The notes beneath the pieces are model-generated. The model was not told the origin of the DNA and made no database searches. It saw only the letters and a program-made list of their open reading frames with translations. A DNA stretch of 64,000 nt from Halobaculum limi (lineage in GTDB: Archaea > Halobacteriota > Halobacteria > Halobacteriales > Haloferacaceae). Numbering within the stretch: position 1 is the stretch's first letter; each line of letters starts with the position of its first letter. The stretch spans positions 1,240,001 to 1,304,000 of the forward strand of contig NZ_CP120468.1 in NCBI RefSeq assembly GCF_029490015.1. Reading direction: 5' to 3'. Both the position numbers and the translations under genes were made by a program. Shown here piece after piece: positions 9,162 to 30,098 of the stretch.

Positions 9162-10142
9162 TTACCCCTGCCACTCCTCGAACTCGCGGTAGACGCCCTT
9201 CGAGAGGTAGCGCTCGCTGGAGTCACAGAACACCGTGACGACGGTGTCGTGGGGGGCGTCCACGTCGCCGTCGCGAATCTCCTCGGCCACCTCGATGGCC
9301 GCCAGCGAGTTGGCGGCGGCGCTGGAGGCGACCAACTGCCCCTCCTCGCGGGCGAGGCGGGCCATCTCCTCGTGGATGGCGCGGTCGGAGAACGTCTTGA
9401 GGTCGTCCAGTTTCTCCGGGTCGACGAGTTCGTTGGTCGAGACGTCGTGGGTTCCGATGCCCTCGGTCTTGTACTCGCCCTCCTCAGCGTGCCCGCCGAA
9501 CAGGTCCTCGTACGTCGACCCTTCTGGCTGGACGCCGACGATCCGAGCGTCCGAGCCCTGTTCGCGGGCGTAGTCGGCCATCCCCATTAGCGTCCCACCG
9601 GTCCCCATCCCGGCGACGATGGCGCCCACCTCGCCGTCGAGGGCGTCGAACACCTCGGGCGCGGTCGTCGCGTAGTGCGACTCCGCGTTCAGCGGGTTCT
9701 GGAACTGTTGGGGGACGACCGCGTCGTCGAGTTCCGACGCGAGTTCGTGTGCGCGGTCAATAGCGCCGCCCATCCCGTCCTCGCTGGGCGTGTTCACCAC
9801 CTCCGCGCCGAGCGCACGCATCAACTGCTGTTTCTCGACGCTGAATCGCTCGGGCACGACGAACACCGCGTTCACGTTGAGTTGCCCCGCCGCGACAGCG
9901 AAGCCGATGCCCGTGTTGCCCGCCGTCGGTTCGATGACGGTGCCGCCGGGGGAGATGGTTCCATCCTCCAGCATCCGTTCGAGCATGTACTTCCCGATGC
10001 GGTCTTTCACCGACGCGCCGGGGTTGAACGTCTCCAACTTCGCGTACACCGGCACGTCGTCGGGCGAAGCGTGGACGCGGACGAGCGGCGTCTCCCCGAC
10101 CGTCTCCAGCACGGAGTCGAGGGGTTCGCGGTGAGTGGTCAT
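9162..10142 (-). CDS. cysK: Cysteine synthase (PLP-dependent O-acetylserine sulfhydrylase family)
   Basis: A 326-residue fold-type II PLP enzyme. K46 in NPGASVKDRIG is the PLP Schiff-base lysine, TAGNTG (73-78) binds substrate carboxylate, and GMGTGGTLMG is the PLP-phosphate loop. It forms cysteine from an activated serine and sulfide in the cytosol. Cystathionine beta-synthase activity cannot be excluded, but the size without a CBS domain fits cysteine synthase. The ATG at 10142 is chosen because the upstream extension is short and an A/T-rich AAAGATAC lies about 30 nt upstream. Confidence 0.92.
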   Translation of the reverse strand: MTTHREPLDSVLETVGETPLVRVHASPDDVPVYAKLETFNPGASVKDRIGKYMLERMLEDGTISPGGTVIEPTAGNTGIGFAVAAGQLNVNAVFVVPERFSVEKQQLMRALGAEVVNTPSEDGMGGAIDRAHELASELDDAVVPQQFQNPLNAESHYATTAPEVFDALDGEVGAIVAGMGTGGTLMGMADYAREQGSDARIVGVQPEGSTYEDLFGGHAEEGEYKTEGIGTHDVSTNELVDPEKLDDLKTFSDRAIHEEMARLAREEGQLVASSAAANSLAAIEVAEEIRDGDVDAPHDTVVTVFCDSSERYLSKGVYREFEEWQG

Positions 10143-14480: not shown

Positions 14481-15755
14481 TTATCGGTCGGCGGCCGCCT
14501 CTTCGACGACGTCGGCGTCGGCAGGCGAGCGTGCGTCGAACTCCGCCACTAGTTCGTCCACGCGTCCGGGGTCGTCTGCCCCAACCAACGGCGTCTCGGC
14601 GGTTCGCCCCTCCTCGTCGACGCCCAGCCTCTCGCACACGCGGTCGGCGACGGCTTCTGCCATTACGCGATGCGTGGTTAGTTTCCCGCCGACGATCGAA
14701 TAGAATCCCGCGACGCCGTCTTCCTCGTGGTCTAACAGAGTGAACTCCCGCGAAATGCCGCGCGCGTCTCCGGTTCCGGCCTCGTCGTCGGTCTCGGCTA
14801 CCCGCCGCGCCTCGTCGGGGGCAAACAGCGGCCTGACGCCCCAGTAATCGTCGAGAACCTCCGCGTCCGCAAACCCTGGGACCATCTGGGCACACTCGTC
14901 GATCACACGTCGGATATCCGCGTCGTCACGGTCGTACTCGTCGGGGTCGTCGACGACGACGCTCGTCGTCCCGAGGACGGTCCGCCCGCCGTGCGGCACC
15001 GCGATGTCGCCGTCCGACGGCGACCGTGCGCGGTTGAGCACCGGCCCGACCCCGGCGTAGTCGACGCCCACCATCACCCCCATCGTGGGCTGCATCGGCA
15101 CGTCGACGCCCGCGAGCGCCGCACAGCCTTCCGCCCACGCGCCTGCTGCGTTGACCACGACGTCGGCGTCGACGTGCTCACCGCCGACCGTCGCGCCGGC
15201 GATTGCCCCGTCTTCGACGCGGAGGTCAGTCACCGGCGCGTGGGTCCGGATGCACGCGCCACGCTCGCGGGCGTCGCCAGCGAGCGCGGCGACCAGCCGC
15301 GAGGGGTAGACGACGCCGTCGGGGACGCGCAGTACGCGTGACACCGACTCCGAGAGTCCCGGCACCGCTTCGCGGGCCGCCTCGAGGGACAGTTCCTCGA
15401 CTTCGATTCCGACCTCGCGGCAGGCGTCGCGCTTCGCGTCGAAGTAGTCGTCGTCGTCGGCTTCGAGCGAGACGAACAAGCCGCCGGTGTCGGCGATACA
15501 CGCGCCGGCGATGTCGCGCAGGGTCTGGTTCTCCGCGATGCACTCTGCGGCCCCCGTCGGGTCCGACTCGGCGTAGCGCGCGCCCGAGTGGAGCACGCCG
15601 TGTGAGCGGCCGGTGGCCCCGGCCGAGAGGCCGCCACGCTCGGCGAGGGTGACAGCCACCCCCCGCATTGCCAGGTCGCGCGCGACGCCCGCGCCGGTCG
15701 CGCCGCCGCCGATAACCAGTACGTCTGGGTCGCGGCCGTCGTCAGTTTGGGTCAC
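14481..15755 (-). CDS. GlpA-like FAD-dependent glycerol-3-phosphate dehydrogenase, short form
   Basis: A 424-residue flavoprotein from GTG 15755. DVLVIGGGATGAGVARDLAMRG is the Rossmann FAD site. GLSAGATGRSHGVLHSGARY, NAAGAWAEGCAALAGVDVPM and FYSIVGGKLTTHRVMAEAVAD match glycerol-3-phosphate dehydrogenases. Unlike the GlpA at 20104 it stops soon after the FAD domain and lacks the C-terminal Cys-rich (CQC ... CxxxxC) domain. It lies downstream of glpK and glpX on the same strand after a 160-bp gap. It could be a second G3P dehydrogenase or act on a related hydroxy acid phosphate. Confidence 0.85.
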   Translation of the reverse strand: MTQTDDGRDPDVLVIGGGATGAGVARDLAMRGVAVTLAERGGLSAGATGRSHGVLHSGARYAESDPTGAAECIAENQTLRDIAGACIADTGGLFVSLEADDDDYFDAKRDACREVGIEVEELSLEAAREAVPGLSESVSRVLRVPDGVVYPSRLVAALAGDARERGACIRTHAPVTDLRVEDGAIAGATVGGEHVDADVVVNAAGAWAEGCAALAGVDVPMQPTMGVMVGVDYAGVGPVLNRARSPSDGDIAVPHGGRTVLGTTSVVVDDPDEYDRDDADIRRVIDECAQMVPGFADAEVLDDYWGVRPLFAPDEARRVAETDDEAGTGDARGISREFTLLDHEEDGVAGFYSIVGGKLTTHRVMAEAVADRVCERLGVDEEGRTAETPLVGADDPGRVDELVAEFDARSPADADVVEEAAADR

Positions 15756-15915
15756 ACAGACGTTACGAGTGGGACGTGTTGAGACTGTCGCCCGGTGTCG
15801 TCGGCGCTGCCGTGAGTGGTGTCGTAATCGGCACCACCGCCGCGAACCTCGCGTGCGGCCGCTCGACAGAACGGCGATGCAAAAAACTGGACAGGGCCGA
15901 CCGACTGGCCGGTGT

Positions 15916-16992
15916 TCAGAGGTAGCCCGCGTTGGGCAACACGCCGAGTAGCGCGAGGATAGCCACGACCAGCATCGCGATGGCGATGGCCATCGCGGGC
16001 GGGTCGACGTGGGTGCCTGAGTGGGCGTACAGCAGGCGTTGGGTGACTTCACCCAGCAGTCCGCTGATCACGCCGAACGCGCCCGCTGCGAGCAGCGCGA
16101 CGACGCTCCCGGCGACCGGGTCGACGACGACCGCTCCGACGGCACCGATGAGCGTGATGTGGTGCGTGACGGGTATCTTCTCGACGCCCAACTCCAAGAA
16201 CAGGAGGCTGATGGCCGAGATGGCGTAGCCGAGGAAGATGCTCCCCGTCTGAATCCAGATGTAGCCGCCGAGAATGCCGCCGACGAGACCGATGGTGGCG
16301 ACGCCGGCCCACTTGTACTGGTGAGGGAGCCACGGCTCCGTGGCGAGGCGACCGGCGTGTTCTTCGGCGACCGCACCGCCGTCGGGGACCGAACGCGGTT
16401 CCTCACGCTCGAACGGCGACATATCGAGCAGGCTCGATCCGGCCGCCTTCCCGACGAGTGGGTAGCCGAACACGACGCGAGCGATCAACGCCGTCAGTAC
16501 GACCGACAGCGCGATGGTGTCGGTCGGCGTCCCGACGGCCGCGCCGACCTGATTGATCAACATACCGAGCAGACCGAACACCGCGCCGACCGCGAGGATG
16601 TCCGGCTTGGTGCCGAACGCGTAGAGGATGTTCTTCCCGAAGTGGTAGTCCCAGCCCTCGGGTTCCATCTCTGGATACTTTTTCCCGGCATACGCCGAGG
16701 CGGCGACGCCGCCGGCGAACGCGATGTGCGGGCCAGTGACGGCGCCGAAGCCGATGACGCCGGTGACGCCGGCGGCGAGTTCGCCGCCGTTGATGCCGGG
16801 GAGCGTCCCGATCTCACGCTGGAGGATCGCGAGCCCCTCACCGAGGAAGACGACGAACCCGGTGAAGATGAACGCTGGGAGTGCGCCGATCGCCGCACCG
16901 AACGCGCCGCCCGCCAGCGCCGTGATCAACAGGAGGAGGAACGGTTCCCACTCCATCCCGATGAGCGGTACTTGGATGAACAGTTCCTGCAT
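15916..16992 (-). CDS. glpX: Putative glycerol facilitator GlpX (multi-pass membrane protein)
   Basis: A 358-residue membrane protein with about ten hydrophobic helices. Motifs shared with the paralogue at 24566 include GGAFGAA, GPHIAFAGG, KPDILAVGAVFG, ARVVFGYPLVG, LLDMSPFER, EPWLPHQYKW, IPVTHHI and YAHSGTHVDPPA. It follows glpK by six bases, so it belongs to the glycerol operon. In Haloferax volcanii the gene after glpK was named glpX and proposed to be the glycerol facilitator; the name there is unrelated to the bacterial GlpX fructose bisphosphatase. It has no NPA motifs, so it is not an aquaporin-type channel. The transport role is inferred from context. Confidence 0.8.
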   Translation of the reverse strand: MQELFIQVPLIGMEWEPFLLLLITALAGGAFGAAIGALPAFIFTGFVVFLGEGLAILQREIGTLPGINGGELAAGVTGVIGFGAVTGPHIAFAGGVAASAYAGKKYPEMEPEGWDYHFGKNILYAFGTKPDILAVGAVFGLLGMLINQVGAAVGTPTDTIALSVVLTALIARVVFGYPLVGKAAGSSLLDMSPFEREEPRSVPDGGAVAEEHAGRLATEPWLPHQYKWAGVATIGLVGGILGGYIWIQTGSIFLGYAISAISLLFLELGVEKIPVTHHITLIGAVGAVVVDPVAGSVVALLAAGAFGVISGLLGEVTQRLLYAHSGTHVDPPAMAIAIAMLVVAILALLGVLPNAGYL

Positions 16993-16998
16993 ACACTT

Positions 16999-18531
16999 TC
17001 ACTCCTCTGTCGCCCAGTCCAGCGAGCGTTCGACGGCGTCGTCCCAGCGATCGTACATCGCGTCGACCTCTGCGGCGTCCTTCTCGGGCGTGAACTCGCG
17101 GTCGATCTGCCAGTTCTTGCGGAGGTCGTCCACGGAGTCCCAGTAGCCGACGGCGAGGCCAGCGGCGTACGCCGACCCGAGTGCGGTCGTCTCGTCGACC
17201 TCGGGCCGCGCGATCTCCGTCTGGATGATGTCGGACTGCAACTGACACAGGAAGTTGTTCTTCACCGCACCGCCGTCGACACGCAGACTGGTCGTCTCGA
17301 CGCCGGAGTCGGCCTCCATCGCCTCGGCGACGTCGCGCGTCTGGTAGGCGATCGCCTCCAGCGTCGCCCGGACGATGTGCTCCTTGCGGGTGCCGCGGGT
17401 CATCCCGACGATGGTCCCGCGGGCGCGACCGTCCCAGTGCGGCGCACCGAGGCCGGTGAACGCCGGGACCATGTAGACGCCGTCGGTCGAGTCGACCGAC
17501 CGCGCGAGTTCGGCCGTCTGGGCGGCGTTGTTGATGAGGTCGACGTCCTCCAGCCACTCGATGGCCGCGCCCGTGACGAAGATAGAGCCCTCCAGCGCGT
17601 ACTGGACGGGTTCGCCGGACAACTGGAACCCGATCGTCGTCAGGAGGCCGTGATCGGATTTGACAGCCTCGTTCCCGGTGTTCATCAGGTAGAACGACCC
17701 GGTTCCGTAGGTGTTCTTCGCGTCGCCCTTGTCGAAGCAGGTCTGGCCGAACATCGCCGCCTGCTGGTCGCCGAGAGCGCCCGCGACGGGAACCTCGGCG
17801 CCGAGGAAGCCGTCGGCGTCGGTCGTTCCGTAGAACGCCTCGTCGGAGGACGGTCGGACCTCGGGCACCATCTCTTCTGGAACGTCGAACTCCGCCAGCA
17901 GTTCGTCGTCCCACTCCATCTCGCGGATGTTGTACAACATGGTCCGCGAGGCGTTCGTCACGTCGGTGATGTGGTTGCCCGTGAGGTTGTAGATGAGCCA
18001 ACTGTCGATGGTGCCCATCAACAGGTCGCCGCTGCGGGCGCGGTCGCGGAGGTCTTGATCCCGCGAGGCGCTCAGTTTCAACGGCTCCGCGTTGTCCAAG
18101 ATCCACTCCGTCTTCGTCGCGGAGAAGTAGGCGTCACACTCCAGTCCCGTCTTCTCGCGGATCCACTCGACTTTGTCTGCCTCCTGTATCTCCTCGACGC
18201 GGTCGGTCGTCCGGCGGTCCTGCCAGACGAGTGCGTTGTGGACGGGTCGCCCGGTCTCCGAGTCCCAGACGATGGTCGTCTCCCGCTGGTTCGTGATGCC
18301 GATGGCCTCGAGTTGGTCTGCGGAGAGTCCCGCGTCGTCGAGGCCAGCCAGCACTACTTCCTTCGTGTTCTCCCAGATTTCCGTGGGATCGTGTTCGACC
18401 CACCCTGGGTTCGGGTAGATCTGTTCGTGCTTCTCGTAGGCGTTCGCGATCACCTGCCCCGCGTGATCGAACACCATAAATCTAGTCCCGGTCGTTCCCT
18501 GATCGATCGCGCCGACGTATGTGTCTGACAT
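16999..18531 (-). CDS. glpK: Glycerol kinase
   Basis: A 510-residue FGGY-family kinase phosphorylating glycerol to sn-glycerol 3-phosphate with ATP. It opens with AIDQGTTGTRFMVFD (phosphate 1 loop). PGWVEHDPTEIW, ITNQRETTIVWD, the glycerol-contacting LVWQDRRT, GTIDSWLIYNLTG, ALGDQQAAMFGQ, GTGSFYLMNTG and VDGGAVKNNFLCQLQ are all in family order. The ATG at 18531 is chosen because the sequence must begin near the P-loop strand. The TATA-like GTTTATAAT (18598-18606) then leaves a 5' leader of some 40 nt. It is the first gene of glpK-glpX and is divergent from the Orc-like ATPase and glpABC. Confidence 0.97.
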   Translation of the reverse strand: MSDTYVGAIDQGTTGTRFMVFDHAGQVIANAYEKHEQIYPNPGWVEHDPTEIWENTKEVVLAGLDDAGLSADQLEAIGITNQRETTIVWDSETGRPVHNALVWQDRRTTDRVEEIQEADKVEWIREKTGLECDAYFSATKTEWILDNAEPLKLSASRDQDLRDRARSGDLLMGTIDSWLIYNLTGNHITDVTNASRTMLYNIREMEWDDELLAEFDVPEEMVPEVRPSSDEAFYGTTDADGFLGAEVPVAGALGDQQAAMFGQTCFDKGDAKNTYGTGSFYLMNTGNEAVKSDHGLLTTIGFQLSGEPVQYALEGSIFVTGAAIEWLEDVDLINNAAQTAELARSVDSTDGVYMVPAFTGLGAPHWDGRARGTIVGMTRGTRKEHIVRATLEAIAYQTRDVAEAMEADSGVETTSLRVDGGAVKNNFLCQLQSDIIQTEIARPEVDETTALGSAYAAGLAVGYWDSVDDLRKNWQIDREFTPEKDAAEVDAMYDRWDDAVERSLDWATEE

Positions 18532-18606: not shown

Positions 18607-18707
18607 TTACTGACGCATAGGGTACTAACGGTAAATAATGTGTGTCGTACTACCCGTTCGACTCTGCAGTCTGCTGGCCCGTGCTCCCGCAGTCGCCACA
18701 CCGGGAG

Positions 18708-18729
18708 GGCGGCGCGTGTGGGCGCCGCC
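18708..18729. repeat. GC-only inverted repeat between glpK and the Orc-like gene
   Basis: GGCGGCGC and GCGCCGCC, perfect 8-bp arms around a 6-nt loop, in the divergent region 94 bp before the Orc-like ATG. The region around it (18532-18822) has no other gene. It could be a leader hairpin or a protein-binding site. Confidence 0.45.
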
Positions 18730-18822
18730 GCCGGCCGCAAAGAAATCGGTTCGATTAGAAGTCCACAGTCCGAACAGCCAGCAACACGACGACATCCACC
18801 GCAACCCCGGTATCTGCAAGTT

Positions 18823-20001
18823 ATGAACATCCAAGACAGGATCGACCGCCGCCAACGGACGGACGACCGAAACCGACTCCTGCTCGACGAGGAGCAGTTG
18901 AGCCCCGTGTGGCACCCGGACGAGCCAACCGGCCGGGGAACCCTCATCGAGCGATTGCTCGACCACTTCGACCCCGCCTTCGACGGTCAGTGTCCCCCCA
19001 ACGGCTACCTCCACGGACCCGGCGGGGCGGGGAAATCCGCCGTCGTGTCGGCGCTCGTCCGGCATCTCGCGTCCTCGATGGCTCCCCCGACGAACGCCGT
19101 CTTCACGACGACGCGTGGCGGGAGCGCACGGGCAGTCTCGTTCGTCTATGTCGACCTCCGAGCGGCGGACTCCGCGTTCGAGTTCTCGCACGCAGTGGTC
19201 GACTCGCTCGTCGCTGAACCGGTCCCCCGGCGGGGCGTCGGCACCACCGACCTCCACGAGCGACTGCAGCGGCGCGTCCGCGGTACCGGTCCGGTCGTCG
19301 TCGTCGCCGACCACGTCGGCGAACCCGAGACGGTCGAGGCGGCGACCGTCGACGACCGCCTCGCCGACATCGACGGCGCGTTCGCGTGGCTCGCGGTTGG
19401 TCGGAAGGCTCCTGCTGAGGTTGGCGTCCCGGCCGATAGTGCAGACATCCGTGTCGAGCAGTATTCGCGCGCAGCGCTGACGGACGTGCTATCGGCGCGC
19501 GCCGACGCCGGCCTCGGCCAGGGAACGTTGGCCCACAGTGCGATCCGCCGCATCGCAGAGTGGGCAGAGGGCGACGCGAGCGTGGCACTATCGGCGCTGC
19601 TCGGCGCTGTCGAAGTCGCGTCCAGCGAGGGAGAGGCGTTGCTCGACGACGACGCCATCGACGCCGGGATGGCGGCGGTGCCGTGGCCGTACGTCCCGCT
19701 GGGGCGGGTACTCTCGCTCCCGCGAAACCGGATCCGGACGCTGGCGTGTCTGGTCGACCTCCCGCCGGAGGCCCGCGCGCCTGTCGGCGATTGTGCTGAA
19801 CGGATCGCCGAGCGAATCGACCTGACCGCGTCGACCGTGGAGCGGTTCCTCTACGAACTCGCGGAATCGGGAATCGTCGAACGTGTCCGCGTGCAGGACT
19901 CTGACGGCCCCGGACGACCGCCCAGCAGGGTCGAACCCCGATTCCCCACGCTGGCGTTTCGCCGCCTCGCACGAGCGATGCTGAACGACACGTTCGTGTG
20001 A
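18823..20001 (+). CDS. Orc1/Cdc6-like AAA+ ATPase with C-terminal winged helix
   Basis: A 392-residue protein with Orc1/Cdc6 layout. LLDEEQLSPVWHPDEPTGRGTLIERLL is the initiator N-terminus, GPGGAGKS (65-72) the Walker A, GDASVALSALLGAVEVA the sensor-2 helix, and a C-terminal winged helix lies around residues 315-350 (IDLTASTVERFLYELAESGIVERV). Walker B is degenerate: VVVVADH instead of hhhhDE, so the catalytic Glu is missing and ATP may be bound but poorly hydrolysed. It sits between divergent glpK and glpA, suggesting a regulatory role for the glycerol genes; this is inference. A replication initiator role is less likely, since no repeated origin boxes are visible nearby. Confidence 0.75.
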   Translation: MNIQDRIDRRQRTDDRNRLLLDEEQLSPVWHPDEPTGRGTLIERLLDHFDPAFDGQCPPNGYLHGPGGAGKSAVVSALVRHLASSMAPPTNAVFTTTRGGSARAVSFVYVDLRAADSAFEFSHAVVDSLVAEPVPRRGVGTTDLHERLQRRVRGTGPVVVVADHVGEPETVEAATVDDRLADIDGAFAWLAVGRKAPAEVGVPADSADIRVEQYSRAALTDVLSARADAGLGQGTLAHSAIRRIAEWAEGDASVALSALLGAVEVASSEGEALLDDDAIDAGMAAVPWPYVPLGRVLSLPRNRIRTLACLVDLPPEARAPVGDCAERIAERIDLTASTVERFLYELAESGIVERVRVQDSDGPGRPPSRVEPRFPTLAFRRLARAMLNDTFV

Positions 20002-20103: not shown

Positions 20104-21873
20104 ATGACCGAACGGACCGAGGTGGTCGTGATCGGCGGCGGGTCGACTGGCTGTGGGGTGGCACGCGACCTGGCCATCCGCGGCGTCGACGTCACGCTCG
20201 TCGAGCAGGGCAACCTCACCCACGGGACGACGGGGCGGATGCACGGACTCCTCCACAGCGGCGGCCGCTACGCCGTCTCCGACCAGGCCAGCGCCAAGGA
20301 GTGTATCGAGGAGAATCGCGTGTTGCGCGACATCGCGAGCCACTGCGTCGAGATGACGGGCGGCCTGTTCGTGAAACGGCCCGAGGACACCGAGGAGTAC
20401 TTCCAACAGAAGTTGGAGGGCTGCCGCGAGTGCGGCATCCCCGCGGAGGTACTCACCCCCGAGGAGGCCCGCGAAGTCGAACCGTTCCTCGCGGGAGACA
20501 TCGACAAAGCGATCGAGGTTCCCGACGGCGCTATCGACCCATTTCGGCTGTGTGTCGCGAACGCCGCCGACGCCGAGCGACACGGCGCCCGCATCGAGAC
20601 GCACTCGCCGGTGACGGACGTCCTCGTCGAAGACGGCGAAATCGTCGGCGTCGAGGTGACCCACGAGTCCGGTCCCGGCAAGCGCGTCCACGGCGTCGAG
20701 AGCGGCACCGAGGAGATATACGCCGACCACGTCGTCAACGCGACGGGCGCGTGGGCCGGTCGCATCGGTGACATGGCCGGTGTGAACGTCGAAGTCCGCC
20801 CGAGCAAGGGCGTGATGACGGTGATGAACGTCCGCGAAGTCGACACCGTCGTCAACCGCTGTAAGCCGAAGGGCGACGCAGACATCATCGTCCCCCACGA
20901 GACCACCTGCATCCTCGGCACGACCGACGAGGAGGTGGAAGACCCCGAGGACTACCCCGAGGAGGCGTGGGAAGTCGACCTGATGATCGAGGAGTTGTCG
21001 AAACTCGTCCCGATGCTGGCGGACGCCCGGACCATCCGCTCGTACTGGGGCGTCCGGCCGCTGTACGAACCGCCAGGCACCGGCACGACCGACCCGACGG
21101 ACATCACACGGGACTTCTTCCTCCTCGACCACGCCGACCGCGACGACCTGCCGGGGATGACCTCCATCGTCGGCGGGAAGTTCACCACCTACCGGCTGAT
21201 GGCCGAGCAGATATCCGACCACGTCTGCGACCTCCTCGGCGTCGACGCCGAGTGTACGACCGCCGAGAAGCCGCTCCCCGGCAGCGAGGACTTCTCGGTG
21301 CTTCGCGACTATATGGACGAGTTCGGCCTCCGGTCGCCCATCGGCCGCCGGAGTATGCAACGACTCGGCTCGCGTGCCGACGAGGTGCTGAAGACGGATG
21401 ACCCGAACCCGGTCGTCTGCCAGTGTGAGGCGGTCACGCGTGCGGAACTGCAGGACGCCATCGGGCAGTCGGGGTCGGATCTGAACGCCGTCCGCCTGCG
21501 AACGCGGGCGTCGATGGGCAACTGTCAGGGCGGCTTCTGTGCCCACCGGATGGCGAACGAACTCCACGCGGGCGGAGAGTTCGACCGCGACGTGGTCGAC
21601 CCCGCGCTGGAGGAACTGTGGCAGGAGCGCTGGAAAGGGCAACGGCACGCGCTGTGGGGCGAGCAACTGTCGCAGGCGATGCTCAACCACCTCCTGCACG
21701 CGACGACGATGAACCGCGACGGCGCGACGCCAGACGACTTCGCGGCGTTCGACGCCGGGGAGACGACCGACGCGGCCGGCGTCGACGACGCTGGCGACGT
21801 TGCCGGCGGCGCGACTGCGCCCGACGGTGGCTACCTGGTCGACGAGCGCGGAGGTGAGTCGGGTGGCGATTGA
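20104..21873 (+). CDS. glpA: Anaerobic-type glycerol-3-phosphate dehydrogenase, subunit A
   Basis: A 589-residue FAD flavoprotein oxidising glycerol 3-phosphate to dihydroxyacetone phosphate. [21 protein letters not shown] is the FAD site, followed by [18 protein letters not shown] and [19 protein letters not shown]-terminal BFD-like domain carries C439/C441 (VCQCE) and C474/C479 (GNCQGGFC), expected to hold an iron-sulfur cluster for electron transfer to GlpB/GlpC. A ~100-residue acidic tail follows. The ATG at 20104 is chosen close to the FAD loop; an in-frame ATG at 20062 would add 14 residues. It overlaps glpB by 11 nt. Confidence 0.95.
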
Positions 21874-23137
21874 GTCGGACGTGGTCGTCGTCGGCGGCGG
21901 TCTCGCCGGCGTGACGGCAGCGCTGTCGGCCGCCCGAGAGGGCGCGTTCGTGCGCCTCCTCTCCTCGAAAGAGAGCACGCTCCGGCAGGCGAGCGGTCTG
22001 ATCGACGCGCTCGGCTACCCCGACCCCGATTCGGGCACGGGTCCCGTCGCGGACCCGTTCGAGGCGGTCGGTGACCTCCCTGAGACCCACCCGTACCAGA
22101 TCCTCGGGAGCGAGGCGCTCCGCGAGGGACTCGCGCTGTTCGACGACGCCGTCGGCGACGAGTACCTCGGCGGTCACACCGACCGCAACGCCCTCGTAGC
22201 GACCACCTCTGGCCGGGCGAAGCCGACCGCCCGCTACCCGCGGAGTATGGCGCCGGGCCTCGCCAGCGACGACCGCGACACCCTGCTCGTCGGCTTCGAG
22301 GCCGACACCGACTTCGACGCGTCGCTGGCGGCGAAGCGACTCGACGCCGCGGGCGTCCCGTTCGCCGTCGAGGGCGTGACCGTCGAGTTCCCCGGCGAGT
22401 ACCGCGCCGACGCCGCGGTGACGCGGTTGGCGCACGCACTCGAACGCGACGAGGACGCTGGCGAGGGACGGACGACGCGCCAGCGACTCGCCGACCGCGT
22501 TCGTCCGCATCTCGGTGACGCCGAACGGGTCGGCTTCCCGGCGATGCTCGGTGACACGCACGTCGAGGAGGTTCGCGCCGACCTCGGGGAGCGACTGGAC
22601 TGCGAGGTGTTCGAGATTCCCACCGCACCGCCGAGTCTGCCGGGGATCAGACTCGGCGACCGCCTGTTCGACGCACTCGACGAAGCGGGCGTCTCCATCA
22701 CGACCGGGAACCCGGTAGTCGACTACGAGGCGGACGGCGACCGCATCGACCGGGTGTTCATCGACCGCAACGGCGCGAAGATACCGTACGAGGCCGAGCG
22801 GTTCGTCCTCGCGACCGGCGGACTGGTCGGGAAGGGACTCGACTCGACCCGCGAGGGCGCGACGGAGGCGATATTCGACTGCCACGTCCCCCAACCGGAC
22901 GACCGGATGGCGTGGTCTGCGGAGGGGGCGTTCGCGGACCACGCGTTCGCCCGCTTCGGCGTACGACCGGACGAGTGGATGCGACCGCTCGACGCGAGTG
23001 GGAGTCCGGAGTACGAGAATCTCCACGCCGCCGGCGGCGTCGTCGGCGGCGCGGACGTTGCACGGGAGAAATCGGCGAGCGGCGTCTCGCTCGCTACGGG
23101 GCTTGTCGCGGGCCGCACCGCGGCGGAGGAGGTATGA
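21863..23137 (+). CDS. glpB: Anaerobic-type glycerol-3-phosphate dehydrogenase, subunit B
   Basis: A 424-residue flavoprotein subunit that passes electrons between GlpA and Glp[22 protein letters not shown] is the dinucleotide-binding site, [15 protein letters not shown] and [17 protein letters not shown] are typical of GlpB, and the end ([28 protein letters not shown]) is the second FAD contact. Translation starts at GTG 21863, inside the glpA tail, and the stop overlaps the glpC ATG (ATGA); all three subunits are thus translationally coupled. Confidence 0.93.
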
Positions 23138-24537
23138 GCGACACACACGACACCAACGATATCGACGACACCGACGACGCGACCGGCGCGTGTACCGACT
23201 GCGGCACGGACGACCCGCCAACGGCGACCGACGGCGGCACCGCCGCGGAGAGCGGCGGCGAGTTCGAACCCGTCGACGTGTTCGACGAGACGGATATGGA
23301 CCTCCGACCGGGTGCAGACTCTTGTTACAAGTGCTCAACGTGCGATACTTCGTGCCCGGTCGCGGAGGTGGACGACTCCTTCCCCGGGCCGAAGTTCCAG
23401 GGGCCCGAGCAGTGGCGCCTCAAGCGCAAAGAGGACACCGGCGTCGACGACTCGATTATGGGCTGTTCGAACTGTATGCGCTGTGACGGCGCGTGCCCCT
23501 CGGACGTGCCGCTCTCGCAGATGCACAACAGCGCCCGCGGGGAGTACGTCGACGAGCAGATGGACAAACTCTCGCGGGAGTACATCCGGAACCGCATCCT
23601 CGCGAACTACGGCACGCTCGCCCGCTTCGGGTCGAAAGTCCCCCGCCTGACCAACTTCGTGATGGGCAACTCGCTCGTCCAGAAGGTCAACGAGAAGGTG
23701 CTCGGGATCACCGCCGAACGCGACTTCCCCGAGTTCTCACAGCAGACGTTCCGCTCGTGGTGGAAGGAACGCGGTGGCCCGAAGGTCAAAAGCGAGGAGA
23801 AGCGCATCGCGTACTTCCACGGCGACTACGCCAACTACAACACCGTCGAGGTGGCGAAGGCGCTCGTCCGCGTGTACGAGGAGTTCGGCTACGAGATTGC
23901 CGTCCCCGACCAGCGGTGTTCGGGCACGCCGATGTTCGCCAACGGAATGCTCGACGACGCTCGCCGGTCGGCGGCGGTCAACGTCGAGAACCTCGGCGAG
24001 ATGATCGAGCAAGGGTACGACGTCGTCGCCTCCTGTACCTCCTGTTCGATGGCGCTCCGCCAGGAGTACCCCGAACTGTTCGACTTCGAGGGGACCGAGA
24101 CGGTCGCCGCGAACACCTACGACGCCCTGGAGTACCTGCTGATCAACGAGAACGTCATCGACCCGCTGAGCGAGGTCGACGGCGACCAACTCGACGTCCC
24201 GGACTTCGCGTACCACGCGCCGTGTCACTCCCGCAATCAGGGCCTCGACCGGCAGGCGGTCGAACTGTTCCGCCACCTCGACGGCGTCGACGTCGAGGAC
24301 GTGGGTGACTCCTGTTCGGGCATCTCGGGCACCTACGGCTGGAAAGAGGAGAAGTACGAGTACTCGATGGAGATCGGCGAGGAGATGTTCGAGCACATGG
24401 AACACGCCGAGGGCGAGACGGGGATGACCGAGTGTCCCACCTGCTCGATGCAGATGGAACACGGCACGGGCTACGAGATCAACCACCCGCTGGAAGTGCT
24501 GGAGAAGGCGTTGGTCGACACCGACGTCGAAGTCTGA
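23134..24537 (+). CDS. glpC: Anaerobic-type glycerol-3-phosphate dehydrogenase, subunit C (Fe-S)
   Basis: A 467-residue iron-sulfur subunit that delivers electrons to the quinone pool at the membrane. Two 4Fe-4S motifs are present: C64/C67/C70/C74 (CYKCSTCDTSCP) and C111/C114/C117/C121 (CSNCMRCDGACP). Two heterodisulfide-reductase-like cysteine domains follow (SCTSCSMALRQEYP, then HAPCHSRNQG and CPTCSMQ). The first ~60 residues are an acidic, poorly conserved extension containing an extra CxxC pair (C20/C23). Last gene of glpABC; convergent with the GlpX paralogue. Confidence 0.94.
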   Translation: MSDTHDTNDIDDTDDATGACTDCGTDDPPTATDGGTAAESGGEFEPVDVFDETDMDLRPGADSCYKCSTCDTSCPVAEVDDSFPGPKFQGPEQWRLKRKEDTGVDDSIMGCSNCMRCDGACPSDVPLSQMHNSARGEYVDEQMDKLSREYIRNRILANYGTLARFGSKVPRLTNFVMGNSLVQKVNEKVLGITAERDFPEFSQQTFRSWWKERGGPKVKSEEKRIAYFHGDYANYNTVEVAKALVRVYEEFGYEIAVPDQRCSGTPMFANGMLDDARRSAAVNVENLGEMIEQGYDVVASCTSCSMALRQEYPELFDFEGTETVAANTYDALEYLLINENVIDPLSEVDGDQLDVPDFAYHAPCHSRNQGLDRQAVELFRHLDGVDVEDVGDSCSGISGTYGWKEEKYEYSMEIGEEMFEHMEHAEGETGMTECPTCSMQMEHGTGYEINHPLEVLEKALVDTDVEV

Positions 24538-24565: not shown

Positions 24566-25696
24566 TTATCCCAGTGGAATCCACGCGCTAGCCGGCAGGA
24601 CACCGACCCACGCGAGCAACCCGAGCAACAGCGACGACGCGACGATGCTCGCGGCGGGCGGGTCGAGGTGCGTCTCCGCGTGCGCGAAGAACACGCGCTG
24701 GAGGAGTTCGCCGAACGCTGCGCCGACGAGACCGAACAGCCCCGCCGCGAGCAACGCGACGGTCAGCGACACCTCGCCGGCTACGGTCCCCGGCAGGACC
24801 AATCCCTGCGACGTGCCGGCGAGTGCGAGAACCACCGTACTCGCGGGGAGTGCCATGTGGTGTGTGACGGGGATGCGTGCGGTGCCGCCGACGAGGAACG
24901 CGAGGGCGGCGACGCTGATACCGAACGCGAGGAACGCGCTCCCGGTCAGGTAGGCGACGTATCCCGAGAGGACGCCGATAATCGCCCCCAGCGACAGCAC
25001 TTCCGACCAGCGGTAGAGGTACGGCAGCCACGGCTCCACCCGCGTCGAGTCCGTCGGTCCATCGTGGACGCGCACGGCCCCGCCGTCGGCGGCGACCTCT
25101 TCGGGGTCGCTCCCGTCGCCAGTCTGCGTCGAGCGCCCACCCGGAAGGCCAGTCAGGCCCTCTCCGCGTTCGTAGGGCGTCATATCGAGGAGTTTCGAGA
25201 GCGGTGCGCCGATCAGGCTGTAGCCGAAGACGACGCGGTGGGCGAGCGCCGAGAGGACGACACCGAGGGCAACAGGGTCTGTCGGGATGCCGAGCGACCC
25301 CGAGACGGTCGCGACGGCGAACCCGAAGATGCCGAAAACGCCGCCAACGGCGAGAACGTCCGGGCGCGATCCGACGCCCACCGTCACCTCCTTCGCGGGG
25401 TGGTAGTCGAAGCCGGGCGTGTCGACGTAGCCCTGCTTGACGGCGTACGCGAGCGCTGCCGCCCCGCCGCCGAAGGCGACGTGTGGGCCGAGGACGACGC
25501 CGAAGGCGATGTCGCCGGTGACGTTCACCGGGACGGTGCCGCCGCCGGCCCGCGTCGCCAGCGCGTACAGTTCGCCGACGATGACCGTGAACCCACAGAG
25601 GACGAACGTGTTGAGTGCGCCCAGCGCCGCGCCGAACGCACCGCCGGCGAACGCCGCGAGCAGGAGTTCGACCGCGAGGAGATCCGACAGCGGCAC
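24566..25696 (-). CDS. GlpX-family membrane protein, paralogue in an ars-like operon
   Basis: A 376-residue protein from GTG 25696 with about ten hydrophobic helices. It aligns end to end with the GlpX at 15916: GGAFGAA, GPHVAFGGG, RPDVLAVGGVFG, HRVVFGYSLIG, LLDMTPYER, EPWLPYLYRW, IPVTHHM and FAHAETHLDPPA are shared. A ~35-residue acidic insertion follows the LLDMTPYER loop. It starts three bases after the stop of the LMW phosphatase/arsenate-reductase gene, which itself overlaps an ArsR regulator. Context therefore points to metalloid or related small-solute transport rather than glycerol; glycerol uptake remains possible because glpABC is adjacent. Confidence 0.8.
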   Translation of the reverse strand: MPLSDLLAVELLLAAFAGGAFGAALGALNTFVLCGFTVIVGELYALATRAGGGTVPVNVTGDIAFGVVLGPHVAFGGGAAALAYAVKQGYVDTPGFDYHPAKEVTVGVGSRPDVLAVGGVFGIFGFAVATVSGSLGIPTDPVALGVVLSALAHRVVFGYSLIGAPLSKLLDMTPYERGEGLTGLPGGRSTQTGDGSDPEEVAADGGAVRVHDGPTDSTRVEPWLPYLYRWSEVLSLGAIIGVLSGYVAYLTGSAFLAFGISVAALAFLVGGTARIPVTHHMALPASTVVLALAGTSQGLVLPGTVAGEVSLTVALLAAGLFGLVGAAFGELLQRVFFAHAETHLDPPAASIVASSLLLGLLAWVGVLPASAWIPLG

Positions 25697-25699
25697 CGA

Positions 25700-26149
25700 T
25701 CAGGCCTCCGCGTCGTCGAACGTCCCAAACACTTCGTCGAACAGGGCGACGACGCGCGATTCGATGTCATCACGGATCGCGGCCACCTCCTCGGGTGACT
25801 TTCCGTCGGGGTCGTCGAGCGCCCAGTCGCGCGTGTTCACCGTCTCCGCGAGCGAGAGCGTCGAACACCCCATCGTGGCGACGTAGTCGCAGTCGTTCAG
25901 TTCCTCGTCAGTCAGCTTCTGGGGCGTCCGCTCTGACACGTCGATGTCGAGTTCGGCCATCGCGTCGATAACCTCGTCGTGGACGTGGTCAGCGGGGTGG
26001 GTACCGCCGGTGAGCAGTTCCACGCGGTCGCCGAGGCCGCGCCGCTGGGCCTCTCGCTGGGCGAACGCGTACGACATCTGCGAGCGCCCGGCGTTCTGGA
26101 CGCAGACGAACGCGAGTCGAACCGGGCCGTCGTGGTCGATCTCGCTCAT
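25700..26149 (-). CDS. Low-molecular-weight phosphatase / arsenate reductase (ArsC-like)
   Basis: A 149-residue LMW-PTP-fold enzyme. FVCVQNAGRSQMSYAF is the CxxNxxRS P-loop (catalytic Cys in VCVQNAGRS); WALDDPDGKSPEEVAAIRD contains the catalytic DDPDGK Asp loop. A second cysteine in ATMGCSTLS is the kind used for the intramolecular disulfide in thioredoxin-coupled arsenate reductases. It overlaps the ArsR stop by ATGA and is followed by the GlpX paralogue. Arsenate reduction is inferred from this context; a protein phosphatase role cannot be excluded. Confidence 0.88.
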   Translation of the reverse strand: MSEIDHDGPVRLAFVCVQNAGRSQMSYAFAQREAQRRGLGDRVELLTGGTHPADHVHDEVIDAMAELDIDVSERTPQKLTDEELNDCDYVATMGCSTLSLAETVNTRDWALDDPDGKSPEEVAAIRDDIESRVVALFDEVFGTFDDAEA

Positions 26150-26544
26150 TCGTCCACCTCCCGTGTCGCGTCGAGTGCGTCGATAAGCGCCTCCGCGCGG
26201 GCGGTCGTGTCGTAGTAGCGCCACCGGCCCTCCTTGCGCCGGGTGAGCAGGCCCGCGTCGGTCAGCGTCGACAGGGCGTGGCTGACGGCCGACTCACTCA
26301 CGTCGACGAGCGGTTCGAGTTCACAGACGCACAAGTCGCCCTCGGCGGCCGCGAGCAGTCGCGTGAGTCGGTATCGCGTGTCGCTCCCGAGCGCCGAGAG
26401 CGCGTCCACGTCCTCGGCGGCGTCGGCCAGTTCCACGCGTTCTGCGAGGCTACGGAGGTCGGACAGTCGGTCGTCGACGTCGGCGGCACAGCACTCGCCG
26501 ACCTCGTCGGTGATGAGACGTTCGAGGCGGTTGGTCGATTCCAT
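26146..26544 (-). CDS. ArsR-family transcriptional repressor
   Basis: A 132-residue winged-helix regulator. The ELEPLVDVSESAVSHALSTL helix-turn-helix is preceded by DLCVCELEPL, the CxC of the ArsR alpha-3 metalloid site, and a vicinal CC pair lies near the N-terminus (ECCAAD). Arsenite, antimonite or another soft metal would release it from DNA. The ATG at 26544 is preferred over 26568 because the TATA-like palindrome TTCATATGAA lies 28 nt upstream of it and an inverted repeat fills the gap. First gene of arsR-arsC-glpX-like operon. Confidence 0.9.
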   Translation of the reverse strand: MESTNRLERLITDEVGECCAADVDDRLSDLRSLAERVELADAAEDVDALSALGSDTRYRLTRLLAAAEGDLCVCELEPLVDVSESAVSHALSTLTDAGLLTRRKEGRWRYYDTTARAEALIDALDATREVDE

Positions 26545-26547
26545 ACC

Positions 26548-26573
26548 AACGATTGCAGAATCGTTCATATGAA
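26548..26573 (-). promoter_or_regulatory. Operator/promoter of the arsR-like operon
   Basis: A perfect inverted repeat AACGATT-GCAG-AATCGTT (26548-26565) directly abuts the A/T palindrome TTCATATGAA (26564-26573), the TATA candidate. The repeat covers the predicted transcription start of arsR, the usual place for ArsR autorepression. Confidence 0.55.
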
Positions 26574-26877: not shown

Positions 26878-29800
26878 TCAGTCGTCGGCGGGCGACTCGG
26901 CTTCGACGCGCGCGACGCCGATGGTGACGGCCACGTCCTCGACGGACCACTCCTCACGGAGGTCGAAGTCGCCGTCGTCACCGACGAACGCGTCCGTCCG
27001 CGTCTCCTCGGCGATGTACTCCCGGTGTTCGTCGACGAAGCCGGCGACCCGGTCGTCGTTGACGTCGACGGAGATGCGTATGCGTTCGTCGACGTCGAGG
27101 TCGAGTTCCTTACGCATCTCTTGGATACGGCGAACTACGTCGCGGGCGTACCCCTCGGACTCGACGTCCTCCGTCAGTTCGGTGTCGACGTAGACGGTTC
27201 CGTCGTCGAACTCGGCGCTGACGACGCCTTCGGGGGCCTGCGAGTGGAACGTGACCATCTCCTCGTCGAGGTCGTACACCTCGCCGTCGACTTCGACGGC
27301 GAGCGTGCCGCTCTTCTCCAACTCGGCGCGGGTAGTGCCCTGAATCGCGGTCATCACTTCCTGTGCGTCGCCGCCGAAGGCGGGGCCGAGTTTCGACATC
27401 TCGGGTTCGGCCACCTCGACGAGTTCGCCGTAGGAGTCGACCACCTCGACCGACCGACTGTTGACGCGGTCGGCGAGTAACCCGCGGAGGTTGTCGACGG
27501 AGGCACGGGTCGCCTCGTCGCCGCTCTCGACGACGACGCGCGTGACGGGCCAGCGGAGTTTGCGTTCTGCACGCTGGCGGGCGTTCGCGGCCGCCTCCTC
27601 GACGCCCCGCAGGACGGCCATGTCCGTCTCCAACTGCTCGTCGCGAAGATCCGCGTCTACGTCGGGGTAATCGAGTTGGTGGACCGTCGTGGCCGCGCCG
27701 TCGAGGTGCTGGTACATCCGCTCGGTGAGGTACGGCGCGTACGGCGCGAGCAGGCGCGTCACCTCGTCGAGCAGCGTCGCCATCGTGTCGTAGGCAGCCT
27801 GCTTGCTCGGGGAGTCTTCGTCCTCCCACATCCGCTCGCGGATGGCCTTCACGTAGAAGCGGGAGACGTCGCCGGTGACGAAGTCGAGCAGCGCGTTGAG
27901 CGCGTCGTCGACCTCGTAGTCGTCCCACGCGGTGTCCATCTCCGCTTTCACGGTCTGCAGGCGCGAGAGCACCCACTCGTCGACGACCTCCAGTTCTGCA
28001 CCGTCGAGGTCAGCCTCGGCGGGGTCGTAGCCGTCGAGGCGCATGTACGGCAGCGGGAACCGGAAGACGTTCCAGAGGATGTTGAGGGTGGACTGCATCT
28101 CGTGGAGGCCGTCCCACTCGAACGCGAGGTTCTTCTCCTGTTGCTCGTGGCTCAGGAGGTAACACCGGAGCGGGTCGCGCCCGGCAGCGTCGATGGCCTC
28201 CTCAGGCTCGACGATGTTCCCCTTCGACTTGGACATCTTCGACCCGTCGCCCATCGTGGTGAACCCGTGCATCAGCACCTCGTTGTACGGCACCTTCCCG
28301 AGCGCCGCGGTTCCCATCCCGAGTTGCGACCAGAACCACCCGCGGGTCTGGTCGTGCGCCTCGATGATGAGGTCGGCGGGCCACAACTCCTCGAAGTCGT
28401 CCTCGTTGCCGGGGTAGCCGATGGTGCCGAGGCTGGCGACGGAGGAGTCGAACCAGACGTCGAACACGTCGGGGACACGCTCGTAGGTCGTGCCGTCCTC
28501 GGTGATGGTGAGGTCGTCGACCGACGGACGGTGCAGGTCGATGGTCTCGGGGTCGACGTCTTGGTCGACGCGGTCGGCGAGTTCCTCGCGCGTGCCGACG
28601 ACGACGAGGTCTTCGGCGTCGTACTGCTCTTGCCCCTCGGGCACCCAGATGGGGAGCGGGATGCCCCAGTAGCGCTGGCGAGAGACGTTCCAGTCGGGAG
28701 CCTCCTCGACGAAGTTGCGGAAGCGGCCGTCGCGGGCGGACTGCGGGTGCCACTCGGAGTCGTCGATGTTGGCGAGCAACTCGTCTTTGATCTCGGTGAT
28801 CCGGATGAACCACTGGTCGGTCGCGAGAAAGACGATGGGGGTGTCACACCGCCAGCAGTGGCCGTAACTGTGCTCGTGCGTCTCGCTGGCGAGGAGGAGG
28901 CCTTTCTCTTCCAAATCCGCGATGATGTCGTCGTTGGCGTCGCGGACGAACTCGCCCGCGTACTCGCCTGCGAGGTCGGTGTAGACGCCGTCGCCGCCGA
29001 CGGGACAGAACGCCTCGAGACCGAGTTCCGACCCGCGCTCGAAGTCCTCCTGCCCGTGGCCGGGCGCGGAGTGAACTAACCCGGTGCGGTCTGCCTCGAC
29101 GTAGTCGGCGGTGTACACCTGTCCAGCACCCTCGAAACTCGGGTGTTCGGGCACCTCTTCGGCGAGTGGGTGGTCGTACTCCCAGCCGACCAGGTCCTCG
29201 CCCGAGTGCTCGGCGACGACCTCGTAGTCGTCGTAGCGGCCACGGCGAAGCGCGTCTTCCACCGTCGACTCTGCGAGGAACAGCGTCTCCGTCTCGCCGT
29301 CCTTCGTCGCCTCGACCTCTTGGTACGTGAGGTCGGCGCCGACGGCGATGAACGTGTTCGCGGGGATGGTCCACGGCGTCGTCGTCCAGATGACGAGGCT
29401 CCCCTCGCGGTCGCGGAGGGGGAACTTCACGTAGATGGACGGTGATTCGATGTCCTCGTACTCGACTTCGTTGTTGGCGATGGCCGTCTCACAGCGGGGA
29501 CACTGCGAGATGGAGCGTTTGCCCTGTTCGACGAGGCCGCGGTCGTGGACCTGCGAGAGCGCCCACCACGCCGACTCCATGTACTCGGCGTCGATGGTCT
29601 GGTAGGGGTTATCCCAGTCCATCCACGCGCCGATGGACTGGAAGTCCTCGTCCATGTTCTTCCGGTTGCGCTGGGCGAACTCTCGGCACTCCTCGATGAA
29701 GTTCTCCATCCCGAACTCCTCGATGTCCCGCTTGGTCTCGAAGCCGAGTTCCTGCTCCACCTTCGTCTCGATGGGCAGGCCGTGCATGTCGTAGCCGGGG

Positions 29801-30048
29801 CGGTCGGTGACGTCGTGGCCCTGCATCCGGGTGTAGCGGATGACGGTGTCCTTCAGCGTCTTGTTCCACGCCGTCCCCAGGTGCATCTGTCCGGTCGTGT
29901 ACGGCGGGCCGTCGACGAAGAAGAAAGAGGGGTCGTCGGCGTGCGCCTCCTTGGCCGTCTCGTAGGCGTTCGTCTCGTCCCAGCGCTCGGAGACGGCGGC
30001 CTCCACCGCCTCCGGCGTGTACTGGTCCGAGATGTCGCTGTCGTCCAT
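26878..30048 (-). CDS. ileS: Isoleucyl-tRNA synthetase
   Basis: A 1056-residue class I synthetase charging tRNA-Ile. The HIGH signature is HLGTAWNK (after FVDGPPYTTGQM) and the KMSKSKGN loop follows the connective editing domain, which has TTTPWTIPANT and GHGQEDFERG motifs. The C-terminal zinc and anticodon-binding regions are full length for the archaeal/eukaryotic type. The ATG at 30048 is chosen because CTTGATAACC lies 27 nt upstream (leaderless). An ATG ten codons earlier would overlap that TATA element. No frameshift or truncation seen. Confidence 0.97.
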   Translation of the reverse strand: MDDSDISDQYTPEAVEAAVSERWDETNAYETAKEAHADDPSFFFVDGPPYTTGQMHLGTAWNKTLKDTVIRYTRMQGHDVTDRPGYDMHGLPIETKVEQELGFETKRDIEEFGMENFIEECREFAQRNRKNMDEDFQSIGAWMDWDNPYQTIDAEYMESAWWALSQVHDRGLVEQGKRSISQCPRCETAIANNEVEYEDIESPSIYVKFPLRDREGSLVIWTTTPWTIPANTFIAVGADLTYQEVEATKDGETETLFLAESTVEDALRRGRYDDYEVVAEHSGEDLVGWEYDHPLAEEVPEHPSFEGAGQVYTADYVEADRTGLVHSAPGHGQEDFERGSELGLEAFCPVGGDGVYTDLAGEYAGEFVRDANDDIIADLEEKGLLLASETHEHSYGHCWRCDTPIVFLATDQWFIRITEIKDELLANIDDSEWHPQSARDGRFRNFVEEAPDWNVSRQRYWGIPLPIWVPEGQEQYDAEDLVVVGTREELADRVDQDVDPETIDLHRPSVDDLTITEDGTTYERVPDVFDVWFDSSVASLGTIGYPGNEDDFEELWPADLIIEAHDQTRGWFWSQLGMGTAALGKVPYNEVLMHGFTTMGDGSKMSKSKGNIVEPEEAIDAAGRDPLRCYLLSHEQQEKNLAFEWDGLHEMQSTLNILWNVFRFPLPYMRLDGYDPAEADLDGAELEVVDEWVLSRLQTVKAEMDTAWDDYEVDDALNALLDFVTGDVSRFYVKAIRERMWEDEDSPSKQAAYDTMATLLDEVTRLLAPYAPYLTERMYQHLDGAATTVHQLDYPDVDADLRDEQLETDMAVLRGVEEAAANARQRAERKLRWPVTRVVVESGDEATRASVDNLRGLLADRVNSRSVEVVDSYGELVEVAEPEMSKLGPAFGGDAQEVMTAIQGTTRAELEKSGTLAVEVDGEVYDLDEEMVTFHSQAPEGVVSAEFDDGTVYVDTELTEDVESEGYARDVVRRIQEMRKELDLDVDERIRISVDVNDDRVAGFVDEHREYIAEETRTDAFVGDDGDFDLREEWSVEDVAVTIGVARVEAESPADD

Positions 30049-30098
30049 ACTCGGTGTGAACCAACGCGAGGTTATCAAGTCGGTGGTCCTGTGGCGTG

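Follow-up and report, generated by a model that had tools for sequence, protein, structure and literature searches.

A glycerol-permease relative as the probable metalloid exit route of a haloarchaeal ars operon

Within the 64,000-nucleotide stretch of the Halobaculum limi genome analysed here (the window, on which all coordinates are given), one gene for a membrane protein closes an arsR-arsC operon and a second gene of the same family directly follows glpK. What would a relative of a glycerol permease do in an arsenic operon? The initial annotation proposed that the family had been put to double use, one member serving glycerol and one serving trivalent metalloid. Our reading, to which we assign a probability of roughly 0.8, is that the permease encoded at 24566-25696 of the minus strand would let metalloid out of the cell as part of an arsR-arsC-permease operon under ArsR control, carrying As(OH)3 and Sb(OH)3, descended from the glpK-linked family and standing in the place of Acr3.

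The gene order on the minus strand is ileS-arsR-arsC-permease, with the operon spanning 24566-26568; ileS (26878-30078, minus strand) lies outside the system and is the conserved flank that we used to align this slot between species. The regulator gene arsR (26146-26544, minus strand, from its likelier start) overlaps arsC (25700-26149, minus strand) by 4 nt, and the permease gene, which has a GTG start and encodes 376 residues, follows arsC after a gap of 3 nt. The overlap originally described for the whole operon is therefore limited to its first junction. ArsR matched HTH_5 (E=2.8e-9) and NCBIfam HTH_metalloreg (75.7 bits against a cut-off of 55) and carries a CVC motif that is invariant among the ars-clade ArsRs examined, bearing out the CxC sensor noted at the outset; it is predicted to be a regulator of the ArsR/SmtB type whose metalloid site is formed by the cysteines of CxC in helix 3. 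An N-terminal CC pair (GECC..DV; window 26440-26520), nearly invariant in the ars-clade ArsRs besides the CVC motif, possibly supplies extra As(III) ligands. ArsC has the CX5R loop CVQNAGRS and a DDPDGK motif, and its LMW-PTP fold was likewise upheld by the Pfam LMWPc match (E=4.8e-27) and by its nearest solved chains, which are arsenate reductases (3t38, E=8e-18). It did not attain the NCBIfam ArsC equivalog cut-offs. We regard it as a putative arsenate reductase predicted to share a transcription unit with arsR.

The inverted repeat reported at the arsR promoter was found at 26542-26571, in an AT-rich promoter/start region, with 13-nt arms (26542-26554 and 26559-26571, 85% complementary) and a 4-nt spacer. 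The element TTCATATGAACGATTCTGCAATCGTTGGTATGG, which contains this 13-base inverted repeat, lies immediately 5' of the second arsR ATG and is kept before arsR in both permease-type and acr3-type operons of sister species; its CAATCGTT half was found again 5' of the second arsR in two acr3 operons. We predict that the repeat is a probable ArsR operator. Its placement relative to arsR required revision, however: because the repeat covers the ATG at 26568 and alignments with relatives begin at the second ATG, a start at 26544 is likelier, and the start at 26568 is probably too early. AT-rich TTCATATGAA, about 25 bases 5' of the second ATG, would occupy the position expected for the archaeal TATA box of a leaderless transcript.

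The permease matched no Pfam family and no NCBIfam family up to E=1, and none of its 98 relatives gave a meaningful match to either collection. No solved chain related to it by sequence was found, either with the single protein or with a 98-row profile. As it matched no corresponding profile, a hidden Acr3, ArsB or MIP identity is ruled out, in agreement with the earlier statement that the route is not of the ArsB/Acr3 type. The name GlpX, applied to the permease in the initial annotation, is only a label for a family that has no Pfam or NCBIfam model; bacterial GlpX is an enzyme and is unrelated to the haloarchaeal permease.

The paralogue at 15916-16992 of the minus strand lies directly downstream of glpK (glycerol kinase; 16999-18528, minus strand) and is 43% identical to the ars permease over the full length (E=3e-73). 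No further family member occurs in this genome, and the two genes start about 8.7 kb apart, close to the 8.6 kb given previously. Full-length homology and shared invariant columns in the 98-row alignment place the ars permease in the glpK-linked family, in which the charged or polar residues K102, R154, H279, E330, R334, H339, H343 and D345 are invariant. Profile searches of 17 haloarchaeal genomes gave no MIP gene (positive controls gave matches), which makes the glpK-linked family the natural candidate for the glycerol facilitator of haloarchaea, organisms without GlpF, and we propose this role for the paralogue. The glycerol-3-phosphate dehydrogenase genes glpA-glpB-glpC (20104-24537, plus strand) are convergent with the ars operon. 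The glycerol genes are split by an Orc1/Cdc6-like AAA ATPase gene between glpK and glpA (18640-20001), and a second GlpA-like dehydrogenase (14481-15800) lies 3' of the glycerol permease on the same strand; this glpK-permease-glpA2 order was seen at two other loci (L064 and L078).

We then consider how often the family is linked to ars genes. In a first set of 60 related genomes, 39 carried the family; glpK adjoined most members, and arsC, usually with arsR, adjoined a minority from several genera. A wider scan of 84,980 named genomes added loci from Halobaculum, Halosimplex, Haloglomus, Haloferax elongans, Natronobiforma, Haloarcula pellucida, Halovenus, Salinarchaeum and Halorarius, and these loci are enriched for the ars type because they were picked by similarity to the ars-type permease. 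The arsR-arsC-permease arrangement, with tight spacing, occurs in many genera at a distance from glp genes. A link confined to this one locus had been named as the outcome that would speak against the double use, and the link proved widespread. Clusters in which glycerol and arsenic genes are joined also agree with the proposed double use. The pair glpK-permease is directly followed, on the same strand, by arsC in Haladaptatus species and one relative (G153) and by arsR in Halorussus aquaticus; an ars gene likewise follows it in G059, on a distant branch of the tree. The hybrid clusters of Haladaptatus and a relative, at L086, L090 (with both arsC and arsR), L091, L101, L104 and L236 (about 9200-10060 in the L08x-L10x loci), fall outside the ars clade.

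Several other neighbourhoods were recorded. Two tandem arsC-like genes lie 5' of the permease in Haloferax elongans (L232:5101-5993; also L083). In a metagenome-assembled genome, arsC-permease is immediately preceded by the end of a PhoU-like gene (L055:1-737), hinting at a phosphate-arsenate link. At two loci the permease is directly 3' of a different FGGY-family kinase, 24-26% identical to GlpK (L118:6342-9002 and L144:6326-8990), suggesting further polyol- or sugar-specific branches. A long-branch pair of permeases adjoins alcohol-dehydrogenase-like genes (L151 and L154, 7932-9044). The family also occurs in Balneolaceae and other Bacteroidota-like bacteria (L095, L097, L098, L116, L139-L141) away from any adjoining glp or ars operon; in the loci read from bacterial members (Balneolaceae, Rhodothermota), no ars genes lay alongside apart from one arsM-like gene in L140 (40% identity), encoded on the other strand at a distance of 300 bp from the permease.

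The ars-linked permeases have a single-clade origin. In a tree of 131 rows, a single branch sets apart all 18 permeases whose only context is ars, drawn from many genera, so that the context changes once on the tree, compared with about 15-17 changes when labels were shuffled; most of the other permeases lie after glpK. In a careful 52-row tree the ars clade has support of 98/93 and appears in 96% of bootstrap trees. Members of the clade carry the substitutions A76G, A107G, I104V, A262V, A289V and A350S at sites that are almost fixed in the glycerol members, and since near-fixed positions are the ones replaced, the clade looks like a functional split and not drift. The alignment contained no conserved cysteine for As(III) binding in the permease, which rules out binding by that means.

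The best evidence that the permease does the job of Acr3 is the non-orthologous replacement at one locus. For ten species of the genus we aligned the region bounded by ileS and glpC. In three of them, the window's species plus G003 and G008, this slot holds arsR-arsC-permease; six have arsR-arsC with acr3, and one (G007) has arsR-arsC only. Among the six, three (G005, G006, G009) are arranged as arsR-arsC-acr3, with arsC overlapping acr3 by 4 nt in every case, and three (G001, G002, G004) have arsR-arsC together with arsR-acr3. From this comparison of gene order, the permease probably substitutes for Acr3, occupying the locus and operon position that acr3 has in sister species. The genus as a whole (11 genomes) divides into seven with Acr3 only, three with the ars permease only, one with neither and none with both (Fisher P=0.024, ignoring shared ancestry). 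Acr3 scored above cut-off in 77 of 145 genomes of the class. Of the 16 genomes that carry an ars-clade permease, duplicates merged, three had such a score (G137, G047 and G413), versus 76 of the 142 other genomes of the class (Fisher P=0.015, with kinship ignored). Profile searches of the window's genome gave no Acr3 (TIGR00832), ArsB (PF02040) or MIP gene. An ArsP_1-family permease is encoded elsewhere in this genome, so a second arsenic route is possible in the window's species; as it is found in both permease-type and acr3-type sister species, it does not explain the Acr3/permease pattern.

AlphaFold (AF2) models of the ars permease (pLDDT 91.3) and the glycerol paralogue (pLDDT 92.6) have the same predicted fold. 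Foldseek searches gave no match at E<=0.001 (all E>0.03), and a likeness to MFS proteins in the top rows was dismissed as meaningless at a TM of about 0.2. When 1000 Foldseek candidates were ranked by structural alignment, the top rows were urea transporters only, with Z of 7.5-8.0 for the ars permease and 6.8-7.6 for the paralogue, at 10-15% identity over about half of the chain; Amt/Rh ammonia channels followed near Z 5 for both models. A profile comparison of the permease halves points to an internal two-fold repeat (P=5.6e-6). The urea-transporter profile PF03253 had zero matches in 145 haloarchaea, with positive controls equally silent. Because a Z of this size can reflect a common helical arrangement, we treat the urea-transporter likeness of the models as a lead only, one that would fit the internal repeat and a channel for small neutral solutes.

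As(III) carries no charge at the pH of the cell, where it takes the form As(OH)3 and mimics glycerol. In the proposed pathway arsenate would enter by phosphate transport, a known route that we presume to operate here, and ArsC would reduce it to As(III), which would release ArsR. As(OH)3, and probably Sb(OH)3, would then leave the cell through the permease, a descendant of the candidate glycerol facilitators. We infer the substrate, direction and regulation of the permease. As to mechanism, we somewhat favor a facilitated-diffusion channel, as in AqpS-type ars operons, over an ion-coupled pump, with the caveat that a passive channel could also admit external arsenite. An active, ion-coupled As(III)/Sb(III) exporter, a true functional replacement of Acr3, is conceivable but unlikely. 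The occupied Acr3 slot and the invariant residues from K102 to D345, which could couple ions, would suit such a pump, but the nearest folds of the two models are passive channels, and relatives adjoin kinases that trap imported solute, as expected for facilitators.

The cargo might also differ from inorganic arsenite. Three operons (L054, L088, L234) have the order arsR-arsC-arsM-permease, with arsM immediately 5' of the permease, and aquaglyceroporins are reported to conduct methylarsonous acid (PMC1440775), which would suit a methylated arsenical (MAs(III)) or antimonite as the main cargo. Most ars-clade operons, that of the window included, lack arsM within the sampled flanks, however, and we hold this reading to be improbable. 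More doubtful still is a permease that remains a glycerol or polyol facilitator under ArsR control with no direct role in metalloid export. It would agree with the association of the whole family with glpK and other FGGY kinases and with the missing cysteine motif, but it leaves poorly matched the clade-specific changes A76G, A107G, A262V and A289V, the Acr3 found in the same slot of sister species, and an ars linkage that is recurrent and of single origin. GlpF and AqpS-type channels, moreover, are not known to require a cysteine. Finally, the glycerol operon lies a few kb off in the window, as it would if a duplicated glycerol permease merely happened to sit beside an ars pair. Chance linkage is nonetheless ruled out by the neighbourhood survey and the trees, in which the arrangement appears in many genera far from glp genes, tightly spaced and with one clade origin. 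Collectively, the metalloid exit permease is the reading we retain. Beyond it, we see an even chance that the ars clade represents a class of arsenite/antimonite channel not described before, with a fold like that of urea transporters and Amt, which arose from a haloarchaeal glycerol facilitator and displaced Acr3 in several haloarchaeal lineages.

The transporters catalogued in ars operons are Acr3, ArsB, ArsP, MFS and MIP proteins (PMC4435449). As far as the literature searched shows, the kind of solution proposed here is known, and no link of this protein family to arsenic resistance had been made. We found no description of the permease in an ars context, though older Haloferax and haloarchaeal glycerol-operon papers fell outside the search, so earlier naming is possible, and we found no arsenic experiment on the family. 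For Halobacterium NRC-1, a model among haloarchaea, a review states that arsB plays no role and that an unknown exporter unrelated to ArsB has been proposed (PMC3600143). A Pfam-less family that alternates with Acr3 at one locus is a concrete candidate for routes of this kind. The analysis also names a likely glycerol facilitator for archaea without GlpF, and it would help to annotate arsenic genes in hypersaline metagenomes, in which the ars permease gene now goes unseen.

Among known systems, Acr3 (ArsY; TIGR00832) is found in sister species at the locus of the permease, likewise placed after arsC in the operon, but the permease has no sequence match to it, no conserved cysteine and another predicted fold family; likewise, it has no profile match to ArsB (PF02040). 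The haloarchaeal glpK-linked family shares full-length homology, 43% to the window paralogue, and the same predicted fold, although the ars members branch apart as a supported clade in which residues of their own are fixed. Urea transporters (SLC14/UT) and Amt/Rh proteins are the best structural matches of both models and, with a two-fold internal repeat, are channels for small uncharged solutes; however, no sequence relationship to the permease was detected, and Z is only 7-8 for UT over about half the chain. The closest parallel in arrangement is the AqpS-type ars operon of Sinorhizobium meliloti (PMC6205960, PMC4435449), in which a glycerol-permease relative accompanies ArsR and ArsC in place of ArsB or Acr3. 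Glycerol channels conduct As(OH)3, and in the AqpS scheme As(OH)3 formed in the cell is proposed to exit through the permease (PMC6205960). A survey of bacteria never found ArsB or Acr3 alongside the MIP transporters of ars operons (PMC4435449), the same pattern as seen here. Unlike AqpS, the window permease is archaeal and of an unrelated protein family, with no match to MIP (PF00230) or any other Pfam family; the haloarchaeal genomes searched have no MIP gene, and its predicted fold is nearer to urea transporters and Amt than to aquaporin. Haloarchaea would thus have converged on the solution reached by bacteria, in which a channel for glycerol becomes a way out for arsenite.
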